Of a stretch of DNA of 33,415 nucleotides, positions 11,155-27,728 are shown one piece after another. Positions within the stretch are counted from its first letter, which is position 1, and each line of letters starts with the position of its first letter. This stretch comes from Candidatus Aenigmatarchaeota archaeon (GTDB lineage Archaea; Aenigmatarchaeota; Aenigmatarchaeia; CG10238-14), in contig JAGVVZ010000010.1 of assembly GCA_018304545.1 (NCBI GenBank), positions 1-33,415 of the forward strand, given 5' to 3'. The notes under the pieces were generated by a model that saw only the letters and a list, made by a program, of their open reading frames with translations, was not told where the DNA came from and ran no database searches. The translations under genes and the position numbers were made by a program.

Positions 11155-12630
11155 ATGGGATTTGGAAATAGGGAATTTCAAAAACCGAAAATGAAAAAAA
11201 TAAGCAACGTTATTTGGGAAATACCGCCAGAATTTAAGAAAGGAATGAGAGTACCTGCAAGAATCTACGCTAGTGAAAAAATAGTAAATGACATGGATTT
11301 GCAAGTATACGATCAGATAACAAATGTTGCCACATTACCAGGAATCCAAAAATATGCGTTCTGCATGCCCGATGGCCATAGTGGATATGGGTTTCCTATC
11401 GGCGGTGTAGCCGCATTTGATATAAATGATGGTGGAGTTATATCACCAGGTGGTATAGGATTTGACATCAACTGCGGTATGCGTTTAGTTTTAACTAATT
11501 TAACTTATGATGATGTTAAACCGCATTTGAAAACTTTGGTTGATAATTTATTCCAAAGGGTTCCTGCAGGTGTCGGCTCGACTGGTTTTGTGAAATTAAG
11601 CAAAGACGAATTTAGGAAAGCTGTAGAAGAGGGAGCACGTTGGGCAATAGAAAAAGGATATGGATGGAAAGAAGACTTGGAAAGAACTGAATTAAATGGA
11701 AAGGCTGAATGGGCAGACAATAAAAAAATTTCTGATAAGTCAGTGGAAAGGGGTTTCAATCAAATTGGTACTTTAGGATCTGGTAATCACTACCTTGAAA
11801 TACAAGTTGTAAAACCAGAAAATATTATGGATGACAAATTAGCAAAAAAATGGGGGTTATTTCCAAATCAAATCGTTATCATGTTTCATTGCGGAAGCAG
11901 GGGTTTTGGTCATCAAGTTGCAACTGATCATCTTCAAATTTTCTTGAACGTGATGGAAAGAAAATATGGAATAAAAATTTTGGATAGAGAATTGGCATGC
12001 GCTCCTTTTAGCTCTCCTGAAGGACAAGACTATTTCAAAGCGATGGCGTGCGGAGTCAACATGTCCTTTGCTAACAGACAAGTTATCCTACATAGAATCA
12101 GAGAGGTTTTCGAAAAAATATTCAAACAAGATGCAGAAAAATTAGGAATGCATCAATTATTTGATGTTAGTCATAATAGAGCTTCGGTGGAAAAACACAA
12201 AATTGATAATGAGACAAAAGAAGTTGTTGTGCATCGAAAAGGTTCTACAGGAAGTTATTATGCGGATAGGAATGAAATTCCAAAATTATATAGAGGTGAC
12301 GGAAGCCCTGTTATTATCGGCGGTTCAATGGAAACGGGATCTTATCTGCTTGTAGGAGGAGATAAATCGCATGAAACTTTTTGCTCAACAGCTCATGGAT
12401 CAGGAAGAACAATGTCAAGAACGAAGGCTAAGCAGTTATTCAGAGGTGACATATTGCAAAAAGAAATGGAAAAAAAGGGCATTTATGTAAAATCTATCAG
12501 TTTTGCTGGATTAGCTGAAGAAGCCGGAGCTGCTTACAAAGATATTGACACTGTCATTGACGCAACACATGAAGCTGGAATTTCTAAAAAGGTTTGCAAG
12601 TTGATCCCAATAGGAAATGTGAAAGGATAA
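11155..12630 (+). CDS. rtcB: RNA-splicing ligase RtcB
   Basis: The 491-residue protein is full-length for RtcB, which joins 2',3'-cyclic phosphate or 3'-phosphate RNA ends to 5'-OH ends using GTP and Mn(II), mainly after tRNA splicing. Active-site motifs are intact: DINCGMR with the metal-binding Cys at 107, GSGNHYLEIQ, HCGSRGFGHQVATDHL, VSHNRASVEKH, the GMP-binding KGSTGSYYA, and STAHGSGRT whose His at about 414 is the residue guanylylated. No intein interrupts it. The gene has its own promoter and ribosome-binding site. Its activator archease is encoded 3 kb downstream on the same strand, separated by unrelated genes. Confidence 0.97.
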   Translation: MGFGNREFQKPKMKKISNVIWEIPPEFKKGMRVPARIYASEKIVNDMDLQVYDQITNVATLPGIQKYAFCMPDGHSGYGFPIGGVAAFDINDGGVISPGGIGFDINCGMRLVLTNLTYDDVKPHLKTLVDNLFQRVPAGVGSTGFVKLSKDEFRKAVEEGARWAIEKGYGWKEDLERTELNGKAEWADNKKISDKSVERGFNQIGTLGSGNHYLEIQVVKPENIMDDKLAKKWGLFPNQIVIMFHCGSRGFGHQVATDHLQIFLNVMERKYGIKILDRELACAPFSSPEGQDYFKAMACGVNMSFANRQVILHRIREVFEKIFKQDAEKLGMHQLFDVSHNRASVEKHKIDNETKEVVVHRKGSTGSYYADRNEIPKLYRGDGSPVIIGGSMETGSYLLVGGDKSHETFCSTAHGSGRTMSRTKAKQLFRGDILQKEMEKKGIYVKSISFAGLAEEAGAAYKDIDTVIDATHEAGISKKVCKLIPIGNVKG

Positions 12631-14926: not shown

Positions 14927-15640
14927 TTACAAAACTTTATAATAAACTCTTCTATTATTTTTTCCCTTGTTTTCTATACTAACTAACTCAATTGTTCCTA
15001 TTTCTGATGTATTTCCAACTTGTGTTCCGCCATCCGCTTGTAAATCAACACCTTCTATTTCTACTAGTCTCAGTTCGGATACTTGGGGAGGCAGAGCTTT
15101 GGCCAACTTAACTACATCGGGTATTTCCATTGCCTGTTCTCTCTTCATAAAGTAGAATTTTACTGGTAAAGTTCTTGTTACTATTTCGTTTGCTTTTTGG
15201 AAATATTCTTTTATTTTGTCCCTATCGAAATTTTCTAAATCAAAATCAATTCTTGATTTATCAACTCCAAGTTGGTTTCCTGTTATTAAAGCACCTGTCT
15301 CTTTGTTTATAACAGCACTAAGAATATGCGCAGCTGTATGCATTCTCATTAGAATATATCTCCTTTCCCAATCTATAACTCCTGTAACTTCATCGTCTAC
15401 TGAAATACCTGATTCTACAACTTCATGAACAATTTCTCCCTTTTGTTTAATTACTCTCAAAACAGTAAATTTCTGGTTATCTGATTTTCTTATAATAACA
15501 CCAAGGTCAGTTGATTGTCCACCTGATTCTGGATAAAAGACCGTCCTGTCAAGAATTATTTTATTATTATCTTCAACTTTGATAACACTAGCATCAAACT
15601 CTTTCATGTAATGATCTCTCAAATATAGCATTTCTGTCAT
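14927..15640 (-). CDS. alaX: Alanyl-tRNA editing protein AlaX (standalone)
   Basis: The 237-residue protein is of AlaX-M length. It has the N-terminal FYPESGGQSTDLG motif and the zinc site HTAAH at residues 101-105, so the HxxxH half is intact. The second half, normally CGGTH, is DGGTQ at residues 203-207 within LQADGGTQVGNTSEIG. The Asp at the Cys position is common among AlaX-M proteins; the Gln at the final His position is less expected. Family function is hydrolysis of Ser- or Gly-tRNA(Ala). The altered zinc site makes activity worth checking. It is convergent with the adenosyltransferase and divergent from archease. A second AlaX-type domain is fused to MetRS elsewhere in this window. 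Confidence 0.9.
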   Translation of the reverse strand: MTEMLYLRDHYMKEFDASVIKVEDNNKIILDRTVFYPESGGQSTDLGVIIRKSDNQKFTVLRVIKQKGEIVHEVVESGISVDDEVTGVIDWERRYILMRMHTAAHILSAVINKETGALITGNQLGVDKSRIDFDLENFDRDKIKEYFQKANEIVTRTLPVKFYFMKREQAMEIPDVVKLAKALPPQVSELRLVEIEGVDLQADGGTQVGNTSEIGTIELVSIENKGKNNRRVYYKVL

Positions 15641-22073: not shown

Positions 22074-23024
22074 ATGCTACATATATCAAAAAATAAGCTT
22101 CACCATTTATATTTAGTTAAAAAATTGGATTCTGTAGAAATTGCTAAAATTTTTAATTGTAATAAAATGACCATTCTTAGAAAATTACACGAACATAATA
22201 TAAAAATAAGACCAGGCGGATCAAAAGTTAAAATAAATAGAGCCACATTAGAGAACTTGTATTTAAAGGATAGAAAATCTACTTGGAAAATTGCGGAAAT
22301 TTTAGGATACTCACGTTCTACCATTTATCAGCACTTGATAAAATTAGGCATTAAACCAAGGGATCTATCAAGTTCTCATATTTTATATAAAAGAAAAAAA
22401 TTTAGTGGCAATGAGGTAGAGAAATCGTATATTGTTGGTTTTGCCATAGGTGATTTGAGAGTTAGAAAATCTGGAAAGGAAGGTAAAACAATTAAGGTTG
22501 ATTGCGCCTCAACAAAAAAAGCGCAAATAAAACTAATAGAAAGTTTATTTAAAAGATATGGTCGAGTTTGGAAAAGTAAACTATTTGGTGGCGGAAAAAT
22601 TCAAATAGAAGCTTTTTTGGACGACTCCTTTTCCTTTTTATTGAATTCGAGAGAATATTTAAATCATATATTTAATGAAGATAGAATGTTTTGGCCTTTT
22701 TTTGCGGGTTTTGTTGATGCTGAAGGATGTATACATATAAGCAATAACAGGCCACATCTTTTAATAGGAAACTATGACGTTGAATTATTGATAAAGATAA
22801 GAAAAAAATTAATCTATATGGGTCTACCTATTAGACCGCTGACCAAGGACAATAAGCTCAGAGTTAATAGTGGGGGTTATGTTAGGAAGAATTACTACTG
22901 GACGTTACGTGTGGATAGAAGGGATTCGCTTAATTTTTTGTTTAAAATTTTAATAAAATATATAAAACATGCTAAAAGAATTTCAGATATGAAAAAGGCA
23001 ATGAGTATGATAAGTAAAAATTAA
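22074..23024 (+). CDS. Free-standing LAGLIDADG homing endonuclease with tandem HTH head
   Basis: The 316-residue protein begins with two short helix-turn-helix repeats (DSVEIAKIFNCNKMTILRKL, then TWKIAEILGYSRSTIYQHL) at about residues 15-100. It then carries two LAGLIDADG-type motifs: SYIVGFAIGDLRV (about 118-130, degenerate) and FFAGFVDAEGCI (about 211-222, well kept). The spacing and the sequence between (KVDCASTKKAQIKLI, LLNSREY) fit a monomeric LAGLIDADG enzyme. It is not inside an intron or intein: it stands between complete genes, 110 bases after the glycosyltransferase and 39 bases before metG. Such enzymes cut a long DNA site and spread themselves. The target cannot be told from this window. 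The second motif retains its acidic residue. Confidence 0.85.
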   Translation: MLHISKNKLHHLYLVKKLDSVEIAKIFNCNKMTILRKLHEHNIKIRPGGSKVKINRATLENLYLKDRKSTWKIAEILGYSRSTIYQHLIKLGIKPRDLSSSHILYKRKKFSGNEVEKSYIVGFAIGDLRVRKSGKEGKTIKVDCASTKKAQIKLIESLFKRYGRVWKSKLFGGGKIQIEAFLDDSFSFLLNSREYLNHIFNEDRMFWPFFAGFVDAEGCIHISNNRPHLLIGNYDVELLIKIRKKLIYMGLPIRPLTKDNKLRVNSGGYVRKNYYWTLRVDRRDSLNFLFKILIKYIKHAKRISDMKKAMSMISKN

Positions 23025-23063: not shown

Positions 23064-26027
23064 ATGGTGGTAAAACTAAAAGATAAATTTTACATAACAA
23101 CGGCTTGCCCATACGTAAATGCACCCCCGCATGTGGGTCATGCTTTAGAACTAATGCAGACAGATGTTATTGCAAGATATCGAAAATTAAGAGGCAATGA
23201 CGTATTCTTCTTAACTGGTACAGACGAGAATGCACAAAAAAATGTTTTATCCGCGGAACATAACGGCATTAAAGTAGAATATTTGGTCAACCGAAACGCT
23301 AAATTATTTAAAAAATTAACAAAAACACTTGGCATATCTAATGATGATTTTATAAGAACAACGGACAAAGAAAGACACTGGAAAACAGCAATTAAAATAT
23401 GGGAAACATGTACAAGAACTAAAGATATTTACAAGAAAACATATACAGGTTTATATTGTGTGGGTTGTGAAGCATTTGTAACAGAAAAGGATTTGATAAA
23501 CGGTTTATGTCCCGAACATTTAAAGCCGCCTGAAAAAATATCAGAAGAGAATTACTTTTTTAAACTTTCTAAATACCAAAAGAAACTGGAAGAATTAATA
23601 GAAAAAAATAAACTAAGAATTATTCCAGAAACGAGAAAAAATGAAGTATTGAGTTTCATTAGAGACGGTTTAGAGGATTTTAGCGTTTCTAGACCTGCCG
23701 AAAGAATGAAAAAATGGGGAATACCGGTACCTGAAGATGATAAACAGACCGTCTACGTTTGGTTTGACGCATTAATATATTATCTATCTGGACTAGATTT
23801 TTATAAAAATTCTGAAAAATATAGAAAATACTGGCCTGCAGATCTTCAAGTTATAGGAAAAGGAATAATCCGTTTTCATGCCGTATATTGGCCAGCAATG
23901 CTTTTGTCGGCAGGTATTGATCCACCTAAATCTATACTGGCTCATGGCTATATTACTGTGAATGGCCAGAAAATAAGTAAGTCTTTAGGAAATGTTGTTG
24001 ACCCCATTGGAATATCTGACAAATATGGTGTTGATCAATTGAGATATTTCTTACTCAGAGATGTTCCAGTATTTGATGACGGCGATTTTTCAGAAAAAGC
24101 GTTGGTTGAAAGAGTCGATAATGAATTAGTTGCAAATTATTCTAATCTGTTTTACAGAATTACATCTTTCATTGAGAAAAATTTTAATGGAAAAATACCA
24201 AAACCTGGAAAAGAAGGAGAGAGAGAAAATGATTTAAAGAAACTATTCAAAGACGAAGTGAAAAAATATGAAAAAGCTTTCGAGGAATACAGGTTAAATG
24301 AAGCGCTGACAGTTGCAATGGACCTTTCTTCCCATTTAAATAAATACTTCCAAGAAAAACAGCCATGGGTTACTGTGAAATCAGATCCAAGCACTTGTGC
24401 AACTACACTTTACACATCAGTTAATCTGTTGAAAATCATATCAACTTTATTGTATCCTTTCATACCTTCATCTAGTGAGAAGGCTTTAAATTGTCTAGGG
24501 GTTAAAGTAGGGTGGGAAAATGTGGATTCTGACATAAAAGAAAATAGTAAAATAAAATCATTAATGCTTTTCAAAAAAATTGAATATTTGGAAAAGATTA
24601 AACACAAAAAAATAGAAATTTTTATAGAGCCAGAAGTTAGAAATTTGGGAATTAATATCAAAGCCGTTATTATTAGAGGAGTTAATATAGCCAATAAAAA
24701 TCCGAAGCTTGAAGAACTAAAGAAACAAGTTGTTCAAGACATTAAAAAAGTTGATTTGAACAACCCCGTGACTAGTGAATATAGGAATCTGTATCAAAGA
24801 ATGAAAGTTAAAGGCGAATCACCGGGTGAATTTTTTGTAAATTTTGTTAAAGAGAAAGGAAATTTACCTAACATAAATACCCTAGTCGATTCGTATAATT
24901 TAATTTCCTTAAAAACCCTCATATCTGCAGGTGCGCATGATTTAGATAAAATTGAAGGCAACGTCGTTTTTAAAATAGCAAATGGTGGTGAACTTTTCGT
25001 TCCATTAAATAGTAAAACACCTCAAAAAATAAATAAAGGCGAACAGATTTGCATGGACGATAAGAAAGTACTATGTTGGATTGATATTAAACAAGGAGAT
25101 CAAGACAGGATAACGAAAGACACTAAAGAAGTTCTAATATATGTACAAGGAAATAAAAATATCAGCGAAAAAAATTTGAACGAAGCAATAGAAAAAATAT
25201 CAAACAATGTAATTGAATTTTGTGGTGGTTCAGTAGAAAGAGTTGACGTTAAATTATTAAAAAGTGAAGAAAAGGCATCAAGCACAAGCATGAAAAACGC
25301 AACTAAATTGATCTACTTGGAAGACTCCTGCAAATTGCACGACACTGCTAAAGTTTTAGATGTTGTGGAAGGTGAAAACAATAAAATTATTATTTTGGAT
25401 CAAACTATATTCTACCCTCAAGGTGGCGGACAACAATATGACACAGGAAAAATAGAAAGCGGAAGTGCTATCTTTGTAGTCAAAGAAGTTAGACTGAATC
25501 AAGAGGGTGTTGTTAATCACATAGGAGATTTCATAAAAGGTAATTTCAACAAAGATGAAGAAGTTAAACTAATAATTGATAAAGAAAGAAGAATGTTCAA
25601 TAGTAAACTACAATCAACAGGCCATCTTGTTGACAATGGAATGATTAACATAGGTATGAAACTGGTACCGACAAAAGGCTATCATTTTCCTGATGGACCT
25701 TATGTAGAATATGATGGGAATATCCCTGAAGACAAAAGAGAAGAAATAAGACAGAAAATTGAACATGAAGTTAACAGAATGATTAAACAAGGATTTAATG
25801 TTAAGGCTGAACTAGTAAACAAAGATCAATTAAAGGAAAAATGCTATTTTATCCCTGAATTTTTACCAACAAACAAACCTTTACGCGTCGTGACAGTTTG
25901 GGGTAATTTAGGAATACCTTGTGGTGGAACACATGTTAAAAATATAAAAGAAATCGGGGAAGTGAAAATATCCAAAATCAGCACAAAAGCAGGAAAAGTC
26001 AAAATAAGCTATTTGATTGAAAAATGA
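23064..26027 (+). CDS. metG: Methionyl-tRNA synthetase fused to B3/B4 and AlaX-type editing domains
   Basis: The 987-residue protein has three parts. Residues 1-about 512 are methionyl-tRNA synthetase with HVGH (23-26), a single zinc knuckle C132, C135, C149, H152, and KISKS (303-307); the one-knuckle form is bacterial in style. Residues about 516-738 match the solo B3/B4 domain of PheRS beta (COG3382), with LVDSYNLISL at about 607 and HDLDKIEGN at about 625. Residues about 748-987 match an AlaX-type deacylase with FYPQGGGQQYDTG and CGGTHV (C953, H957), but the first zinc half is QSTGH (850-854), so one His is replaced by Gln. The usual C-terminal OB-fold is a separate gene, overlapping by 4 bases. 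Neither junction shows a stop or frame break. Confidence 0.9.
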   Translation: MVVKLKDKFYITTACPYVNAPPHVGHALELMQTDVIARYRKLRGNDVFFLTGTDENAQKNVLSAEHNGIKVEYLVNRNAKLFKKLTKTLGISNDDFIRTTDKERHWKTAIKIWETCTRTKDIYKKTYTGLYCVGCEAFVTEKDLINGLCPEHLKPPEKISEENYFFKLSKYQKKLEELIEKNKLRIIPETRKNEVLSFIRDGLEDFSVSRPAERMKKWGIPVPEDDKQTVYVWFDALIYYLSGLDFYKNSEKYRKYWPADLQVIGKGIIRFHAVYWPAMLLSAGIDPPKSILAHGYITVNGQKISKSLGNVVDPIGISDKYGVDQLRYFLLRDVPVFDDGDFSEKALVERVDNELVANYSNLFYRITSFIEKNFNGKIPKPGKEGERENDLKKLFKDEVKKYEKAFEEYRLNEALTVAMDLSSHLNKYFQEKQPWVTVKSDPSTCATTLYTSVNLLKIISTLLYPFIPSSSEKALNCLGVKVGWENVDSDIKENSKIKSLMLFKKIEYLEKIKHKKIEIFIEPEVRNLGINIKAVIIRGVNIANKNPKLEELKKQVVQDIKKVDLNNPVTSEYRNLYQRMKVKGESPGEFFVNFVKEKGNLPNINTLVDSYNLISLKTLISAGAHDLDKIEGNVVFKIANGGELFVPLNSKTPQKINKGEQICMDDKKVLCWIDIKQGDQDRITKDTKEVLIYVQGNKNISEKNLNEAIEKISNNVIEFCGGSVERVDVKLLKSEEKASSTSMKNATKLIYLEDSCKLHDTAKVLDVVEGENNKIIILDQTIFYPQGGGQQYDTGKIESGSAIFVVKEVRLNQEGVVNHIGDFIKGNFNKDEEVKLIIDKERRMFNSKLQSTGHLVDNGMINIGMKLVPTKGYHFPDGPYVEYDGNIPEDKREEIRQKIEHEVNRMIKQGFNVKAELVNKDQLKEKCYFIPEFLPTNKPLRVVTVWGNLGIPCGGTHVKNIKEIGEVKISKISTKAGKVKISYLIEK

Positions 26028-26368
26028 ATGTTGTGATTAAAATGATTAGCGTAGATAAATTCAGAGACATAGAAATGAGAGTAGGTACTGTAGAAAAAGT
26101 AGAAGAAATATCAGGATCAAAAAATCTATACAAACTAACAGTAAATATCGGTGATGAGAAAAGACAAGTGATTTCTGGTATTAAAAAATACTACAAACCT
26201 GAAGATCTCGAAGGTAAACAATTTGTTTTTGTAACCAATTTAGAGCATGCAACACTTATGGGACAAAAATCAGAAGCTATGATATTAGCAGCAACTGATG
26301 AAAATAAAGATAAAGTAATACTGATAAAACCAGAAAAATATACAGATAACGGAATGAAATTAACCTAA
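26024..26368 (+). CDS. Trbp111/MetRS beta-type tRNA-binding OB-fold protein
   Basis: The 114-residue protein is the OB-fold tRNA-binding module that in many MetRS enzymes is fused at the C-terminus. Motifs are DKFRDIEMRVGTVEKVEEI, KLTVNIGDEKRQVISGI, FVTNLEHATLMGQKSEAMIL and the final VILIKPEKYTDNGMKL. It overlaps metG by 4 bases (ATGA), so it is translationally coupled and presumably binds the MetRS product as a separate subunit. The Met at codon 7 (26042) is a possible alternative start that would begin MISVDKFRD. The separate subunit fits the unusual C-terminus of this metG gene, which is occupied by editing-type domains. Confidence 0.9.
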   Translation: MNVVIKMISVDKFRDIEMRVGTVEKVEEISGSKNLYKLTVNIGDEKRQVISGIKKYYKPEDLEGKQFVFVTNLEHATLMGQKSEAMILAATDENKDKVILIKPEKYTDNGMKLT

Positions 26369-26978: not shown

Positions 26979-27728
26979 ATGGAAGGAATTAAACCCCATA
27001 CGCATGAAGATCGAACAAAAATTCTCAAGAAATTGGTGCCTCTCATTAAAAAGAAATTTGGTAGCAATTTTATCGCACTTGCAGCAGATGGTTCATATGC
27101 CAGAAATGAGGATACTGATTATTCAGATTTGGAGCTTATCGTGTTTTTAAAGAAAATTCCAAAAGATGCAAATTGGAGTGTGAGGAAAATAATGAATGGT
27201 TTACTTATTGAAATAATTCCTGATACAAAAATCTCATTTATAGAGAAATATCTCGAGGTATCAGACATGTGGTATGCTTCAGGAGCTGGTCAACTTCTGC
27301 CAATAGTCAATAATCAGTTTATAGAAAAAATAAACAGTTTTAAGCCTGATAACCTTGAGAAAAAATGTTGGAACCAAGCAGTAAAAAGGTGGAATCAGTA
27401 TCAGGAGATAGCGTCGAAGGTATTAAATAACATTAGACAGAAAAATAAGGAAGCTATACCGCTTGTATTCTCGCAAATGGTAAAAGAAACTCTTGTTATC
27501 TTATCATTCATCAACACTACTCCATATAAAACTCTCGGCTCATATATATCACAAGCTAAACGATTTTTCATACAGCCGAAAGAGTTCAGTAAATTAACTG
27601 ATATTTTTGTTAACGGTGAATATCAAGATTTATCATTATTATCTAAAGTTGTAGAAGATACATTTTCTGGCCTGGAGAAGATTTTCCAGCGAAAGGGTAT
27701 AAAACTGTATTTTGATGCTATATTGTAA
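26979..27728 (+). CDS. Kanamycin nucleotidyltransferase (ANT(4'))-like protein
   Basis: The 249-residue protein is similar in length and pattern to staphylococcal kanamycin nucleotidyltransferase: TREER-like start (HTHEDRTKILKKL), the catalytic DGSYARNEDTDYSDLELIV with Asp50 and Glu52 as metal ligands, ISFIEKYLEVSDMW, a Gly-Gln-LLPI segment (AGQLLPIV) like the bacterial GQFFSILPIY, and a helical C-terminal half. The bacterial enzyme has a catalytic Glu in the second half, but the matching region here reads RWNQYQEIASK and its conservation is unclear. In an archaeon, antibiotic modification is not a given role; a nucleotidyl transfer to another hydroxylated compound or a toxin-related role is possible. 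It appears to be monocistronic. Confidence 0.7.
   Translation: MEGIKPHTHEDRTKILKKLVPLIKKKFGSNFIALAADGSYARNEDTDYSDLELIVFLKKIPKDANWSVRKIMNGLLIEIIPDTKISFIEKYLEVSDMWYASGAGQLLPIVNNQFIEKINSFKPDNLEKKCWNQAVKRWNQYQEIASKVLNNIRQKNKEAIPLVFSQMVKETLVILSFINTTPYKTLGSYISQAKRFFIQPKEFSKLTDIFVNGEYQDLSLLSKVVEDTFSGLEKIFQRKGIKLYFDAIL

Follow-up and report, generated by a model that had tools for sequence, protein, structure and literature searches.

CtdA, a stand-alone protein with a B3/4 domain, clears canavanyl-tRNA(Arg) (PDB 9f7e, 9mkl; PMC10018355), and reviews treat it as a family of deacylases with kinship to PheRS (PMC11415595). The AlaX-M and AlaX-L types target tRNA(Ala) and depend on its G3:U70 pair, whereas AlaX-S lacks tRNA specificity (PMC11295145). 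An AlaX-like domain also occurs on a class I synthetase of another specificity, the apicomplexan TrpRS, where it is N-terminal, has lost all four zinc ligands, is not accompanied by B3/4 and, in Plasmodium, is required for the binding and charging of tRNA (PMC3680381). MetRS is described as editing in its synthetic site, before transfer, and homocysteine as being edited at this stage by MetRS and LysRS alike (PMC7373986). In PheRS, the editing domain of the beta chain is a B3/B4 domain. MetRS is not known to have a post-transfer editing site.

The window analysed, 33,415 nt long, makes up one entire contig of a metagenome-assembled genome of the phylum Aenigmatarchaeota (G000; 0.96 Mb, 92% complete). 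A single open frame on its plus strand, from ATG at 23064 to TGA at 26025-26027, comprises 987 codons and encodes, according to Pfam and NCBIfam profiles, a MetRS core followed by a B3/4 domain and an AlaX-type domain. The features of the locus are as follows.

23064-24581, plus strand: MetRS core and anticodon-binding domain, residues 1-506 (Pfam tRNA-synt_1g, Anticodon_3).
24582-26032, plus strand: extra B3/4-AlaX segment relative to the unfused metG locus of genomes G009 and G006; ends placed to within a few bases.
24606-25253, plus strand: B3/4 domain of the MetRS-linked subfamily, residues 515-730 (PF03483, fold, clade support).
25254-25289, plus strand: linker between B3/4 and AlaX, of low model confidence (pLDDT <50, model residues 231-240).
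25290-26024, plus strand: AlaX-type domain, residues 743-987, opening at an internal Met codon (AlaXM and AlaRS profiles).
25611-25613, plus strand: Gln850 (CAA) replacing the first zinc His of HxxxH (alignment, DNA).
25623-25625, plus strand: His854, the second His of HxxxH, kept.
25920-25934, plus strand: CGGTH motif, residues 953-957, with C953 and H957 as the second zinc-ligand pair, kept.
26024-26368, plus strand: separate, overlapping OB-fold (tRNA_bind) gene (PF01588, E 5e-28; TIGR00399 above its cut-off).

The fusion of MetRS, B3/4 and AlaX in one 987-residue chain, proposed in an initial annotation of the sequence, is real. The frame is open throughout, GC content by codon position is alike along it, the three parts are correlated in relative codon use (0.75-0.76), and the domain junctions showed no repeats. 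All domains were matched by profiles, with the Pfam matches of B3/B4 and AlaX, on whose detection the proposal depended, lying above their cut-offs. Since the sequence comes from a metagenome assembly and makes up a whole contig, we considered an assembly or frame artefact that joined separate genes. However, MetRS-B3/4 fusions were found independently in four other genomes, and the extra segment slots exactly into the junction of metG and the OB gene as seen in unfused relatives. On this recurrence and fit, and given the open frame and even codon statistics, we rejected an artefact as barely credible. The fusion had also been called unfamiliar, rightly so: we found no description of a MetRS-joined B3/4 domain in the open-access papers searched.

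Structure prediction agreed with the domain assignments. The C-terminal 483 residues were modelled by AlphaFold with a mean pLDDT of 87.5, and their folds matched AlaX-M and CtdA. In a full-length model the core resembled MetRS structures (TM up to 0.95); the pTM of this model was 0.58, making its domain arrangement unreliable, and its AlaX part was poor because the underlying alignment contained no AlaX rows.

The MetRS part is a complete class Ia core of the single-knuckle, bacterial-like type, as had been read from the letters. It has HVGH (residues 23-26) and KISKS (303-307) signatures, a zinc knuckle (CxxC at 132-135 and CPEH at 149-152; C132/C135/C149/H152) and a Met-type anticodon domain. 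The Pfam families tRNA-synt_1g (PF09334, E 3e-102) and Anticodon_3 (PF19303) were both matched, and the NCBIfam MetG match spans residues 9-507. The closest PDB sequence match was Aquifex MetRS (2csx, E 9e-134). The core nests in the MetRS of family f1, with 69% identity to that of G009. No second MetRS was found in the genome; this one is predicted to charge tRNA(Met) with methionine.

Comparison with unfused relatives located the extra segment to within a few bases. In G009, a member of the same family, metG ends in ...ATGCTTTTCAAAAAAATAAACGTGTGATTAAAATGATAAGC, and the final ATG there starts the OB-fold gene. The window reads ...ATGCTTTTCAAAAAAATT at the same place, continues for about 1.45 kb and then resumes with GTGATTAAAATGATTAGC. 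The extra segment thus lies at the last metG codons, directly before the OB gene, with GTGATTAAAATG at 26033 as its 3' flank; the OB gene start homologous to that of G009 is the ATG at 26042. Compared with MetRS proteins that carry a C-terminal OB fold (MetG plus tRNA_bind), the window has the same core and encodes the OB fold directly downstream, but B3/4 and AlaX sit between the two. The initial annotation correctly placed the OB fold in a separate overlapping gene and supposed that the fusion had displaced it there. We rejected the displacement, since the OB fold is already a separate gene in G009 and G006, the nearest relatives without the fusion. In G003, G005, G008 and G010 the OB fold is fused to a MetRS without B3/4. 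The window MetRS nests among unfused family members (97/90, 100/99), which favours a gain of the module in the window's lineage, the direction that we infer, over repeated loss. Some OB-fold proteins of the downstream gene's family deacylate Ala-tRNA (PMC12021450), and the downstream OB fold itself could matter. On the other side of metG, 39 bases upstream, positions 22074-23024 (plus strand) gave helix-turn-helix and LAGLIDADG-type, homing-endonuclease-like matches.

The B3/4 domain belongs to its family by both score and fold. It matched B3_4 (PF03483) over residues 589-703 (E 5e-21; 75.6 bits against a cut-off of 29.3), its best PDB sequence match was CtdA (9f7e, E 1e-6), and Foldseek against the PDB also gave CtdA (TM 0.77-0.82). 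It is nonetheless distinct from CtdA, which stands alone and acts on tRNA(Arg): the window domain is fused to MetRS, has GAHD (623-626) and KQGD (676-679) instead of GGED...RRWNWRE, lacks the RRWNWR motif and falls outside the CtdA-like clade, CtdA itself having been compared by alignment only. The PheRS beta editing domain shares the Pfam family and fold but matches the window sequence more weakly than CtdA does. An origin as a PheRS-beta fragment was rejected on this ground; the B3/B4 domain noticed initially is present, but its sequence is closer to CtdA than to PheRS beta, to which it had been likened. In a pairwise alignment to E. coli PheT, the position of the PheRS editing histidine (H261 in T. 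thermophilus) is Gly623 in the window protein. CtdA too has Gly at this position.

Profile searches covered 156 genomes of the one phylum, and the 84,980-species collection was scanned once with exact peptide patterns of the window protein, which reach near relatives only; MetRS-B3/4 may thus spread wider. Searching domain architectures, as the initial annotation had proposed, yielded the four further MetRS-B3/4 fusions, in G094, G115, G130 and G126, and placed AlaX on MetRS only in the window's genome. G094 and G115 encode MetRS-B3/4-OB in one chain. The B3/4 domain ends the chain in G130 and G126, and no OB-fold gene was found beside either fusion. The five fusions span five families. Most genomes of the phylum lack a MetRS-linked B3/4 module, which is thus not essential for MetRS. 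In trees that contain few fused members, the MetRS cores of the five did not form one clade (five label changes; AU p 1e-78 against one clade), and that of G115, with two knuckles, clearly belongs to another type. Their B3/4 domains did form one clade (support 96/96; 99/97 without long branches), indicating that the module stays with MetRS across unlike cores. Every domain seen in this clade was attached to MetRS.

Two related clades were associated with other synthetases. The LysRS-linked clade comprises a fusion to class I LysRS in G126, a gene that immediately follows LysRS in an operon of G028, and a stand-alone protein of G145. The G126 fusion (G126:C51, L080:1192-3606, minus strand) is a single 805-residue frame with the B3/4 domain at the C-terminus, in a genome that also has the MetRS-B3/4 fusion. 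In G028 (G028:C29, L039:503-3550), genes for class I LysRS, B3/4 and an AlaX-type protein succeed one another on the same strand, and a Cdc6-like gene comes next. B3/4 and AlaX beside a synthetase are therefore not unique to the window, although the G028 AlaX is not close to that of the window (31% identity). The CtdA-like clade comprises lone proteins (one of them in the window's genome), an N-terminal fusion to ArgRS in G154 (G154:C32, L082:2236-4749, plus strand) and neighbours of alaS. Such neighbours lie directly upstream of alaS with overlapping frames in G087 (L087) and G104 (L081), and likewise just upstream in G077. A divergent lone B3/4 protein of 222 residues in the window's genome (G000:C3:20091-20429; L090, L096) was barely above the family cut-off.

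The clades also differ in their motifs. GAHD is present in four of the five MetRS-linked domains (GTYD in G126), together with KQ or RQ near GD or CD; LysRS-linked domains have WD and YRD; CtdA-like domains mostly have GGED and RRWNWRE, with GGEN and RRWNWRQ in CtdA itself. These differences fall in the better-aligned half of the domain. As far as clades and motifs can indicate, they suggest that B3/4 editing modules are specialised by synthetase. We tentatively propose that B3/4 deacylases radiated into synthetase-specific modules for MetRS, class I LysRS and ArgRS, with every branch adapted to a wrong amino acid of its own, and that MetRS may in this way have gained a post-transfer site; the odds of this wider scenario are slightly under even. 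The attached synthetase would then hint at the substrate of each B3/4 enzyme, and the G154 fusion would join a canavanyl-type editor to the very synthetase that commits this error. Together with the MetRS-linked domain, the LysRS- and ArgRS-linked relatives would make this little-studied family testable as editing enzymes.

The AlaX-type domain has the AlaX/AlaRS editing fold. Pfam matches were the C-terminal portion of tRNA-synt_2c (PF01411, residues 749-842; 56.6 bits, cut-off 30.3) and tRNA_SAD (PF07973, 941-976; 29.8 bits, cut-off 24). The NCBIfam AlaXM profile matched residues 747-977 with 116 bits, below its curated equivalog cut-off of 300. Both the best PDB sequence match (9iuw, E 2e-18) and Foldseek (TM 0.87) pointed to AlaX-M. 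Fold, GGGQ and CGGTH are common to the window domain, AlaX-M trans-editing proteins and the AlaRS editing domain (PDB 9iuw, 2e1b, 2ztg), from which it differs in being fused to MetRS and in its zinc site. The CGGTH motif is intact, as first noted, but the site as a whole is not: three of the four ligands of HxxxH and CxxxH are kept (H854, C953 and H957), and the fourth is Q850, at a position that is His in every other complete AlaX-type row of the alignment. One base change in its CAA codon would alter the residue. The closest AlaX relative found (G042:C28, L041:957-1694) is 36-46% identical by parts; at the place of the Gly of KGYHF in the window protein, its frame contains a TGA, through mutation, error or recoding. 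A plasmid search with the AlaX part gave matches of about 33% identity or less throughout.

An AlaX domain on MetRS might be explained by G3:U70 in tRNA(Met). We rejected this explanation, as the initiator and elongator tRNA(Met) genes that we identified both have C3:G70 (acceptor pairs read by eye). With Gln for the first zinc ligand and no G3:U70 in tRNA(Met), the AlaX domain more likely helps to bind tRNA than to edit Ser- or Gly-tRNA(Ala), and possibly retains a weak or unspecific hydrolysis.

We prefer to read the protein, with a probability of roughly 0.55, as a MetRS to which a post-transfer editing module has been added, B3/4 acting in cis to remove a wrong amino acid from tRNA(Met). 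Catalysis, substrate and cis action are inferred from the function of the family and its repeated association with MetRS. After charging by the MetRS core, the tRNA(Met), still bound or captured again, would present its acceptor end to the B3/4 domain, and this domain would hydrolyse tRNA(Met) bearing a wrong amino acid that resembles methionine in shape. The AlaX-type domain, with its damaged zinc site, would add acceptor-stem binding and possibly weak or altered hydrolysis. The match of B3/4 to a proven deacylase, CtdA, in sequence and fold (PMC10018355), the single B3/4 clade shared by unlike MetRS cores and the placement of related clades with class I LysRS (G126, G028) and ArgRS (G154) support this reading; the low number of fusions (n = 5), the lack of the module in most genomes of the phylum, Gly623 at the PheRS editing-His position and the unreliable domain arrangement count against it. 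The MetRS-specific branch suggests an undescribed proofreading step. If so, some organisms would need a second check on tRNA(Met), which is also used in initiation.

Candidate substrates are homocysteine and analogues such as norleucine, and the data favour none. Against homocysteine, one of its sources, S-adenosylhomocysteine hydrolase, was not found in the window's genome. The gene was detected in 43 of the 156 genomes and two of the five with fusions (G094, G130); its absence from G115 and G126 is weak evidence, both being incomplete. We saw no pattern and rejected homocysteine from this enzyme as the driver.

The initial annotation had offered two roles, action on a mischarged tRNA(Met) and a general editing hub. 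The latter would have B3/4 and AlaX serve other mischarged tRNAs in trans, for instance Ser-tRNA(Ala), with MetRS a mere carrier, and would accommodate an AlaX-M-like activity, which would not fit the C3:G70 of tRNA(Met) given the G3:U70 used by AlaX-M and AlaX-L (PMC11295145). However, besides an AlaRS equipped with an editing domain, the genome encodes PheRS beta, a CtdA-like protein and a separate AlaX-type protein, and the AlaX domain of the fusion has lost a zinc ligand; a hub is thus not obviously needed. The recurrence of B3/4 on MetRS in four other genomes, and of this clade on MetRS only, favours a task tied to tRNA(Met), and we consider a hub improbable. The separate AlaX-type protein is encoded in the window itself (14927-15640, minus strand); it has HTAAH but DGGTQ for CGGTH, so that its zinc ligands are altered too, at the other pair.

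Somewhat less improbable, if still unlikely, is that both added domains are non-catalytic appendages raising affinity for tRNA(Met). The Plasmodium TrpRS domain, which has lost its zinc ligands and for which a tRNA-binding role has been proposed (PMC3680381), offers a precedent, the window AlaX has likewise lost one ligand, and B3/4 in G130 and G126 might replace the OB fold as tRNA binder. Yet G094 and G115 carry B3/4 and OB fold in one chain, B3/4 keeps clade-specific invariant residues and a proven deacylase fold, and the AlaX domain keeps three zinc ligands with GGGQ and CGGTH. A role of the modules in stripping Met from non-Met tRNAs appears very unlikely. In several organisms, one of them the archaeon Aeropyrum pernix, MetRS also charges non-Met tRNAs (PMC11415595), and such removal would correct this relaxed specificity, but described B3/4 relatives discriminate by amino acid and nothing in our data points to relaxed tRNA specificity here.

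Elsewhere in the window, positions 26979-27728 (plus strand) gave a weak ANT(4')-type nucleotidyltransferase match, far below model cut-offs, and RtcB is encoded at 11155-12630. Many tRNA genes of the genome (loci L115-L144) are 83-119 bases long, which suggests frequent introns.
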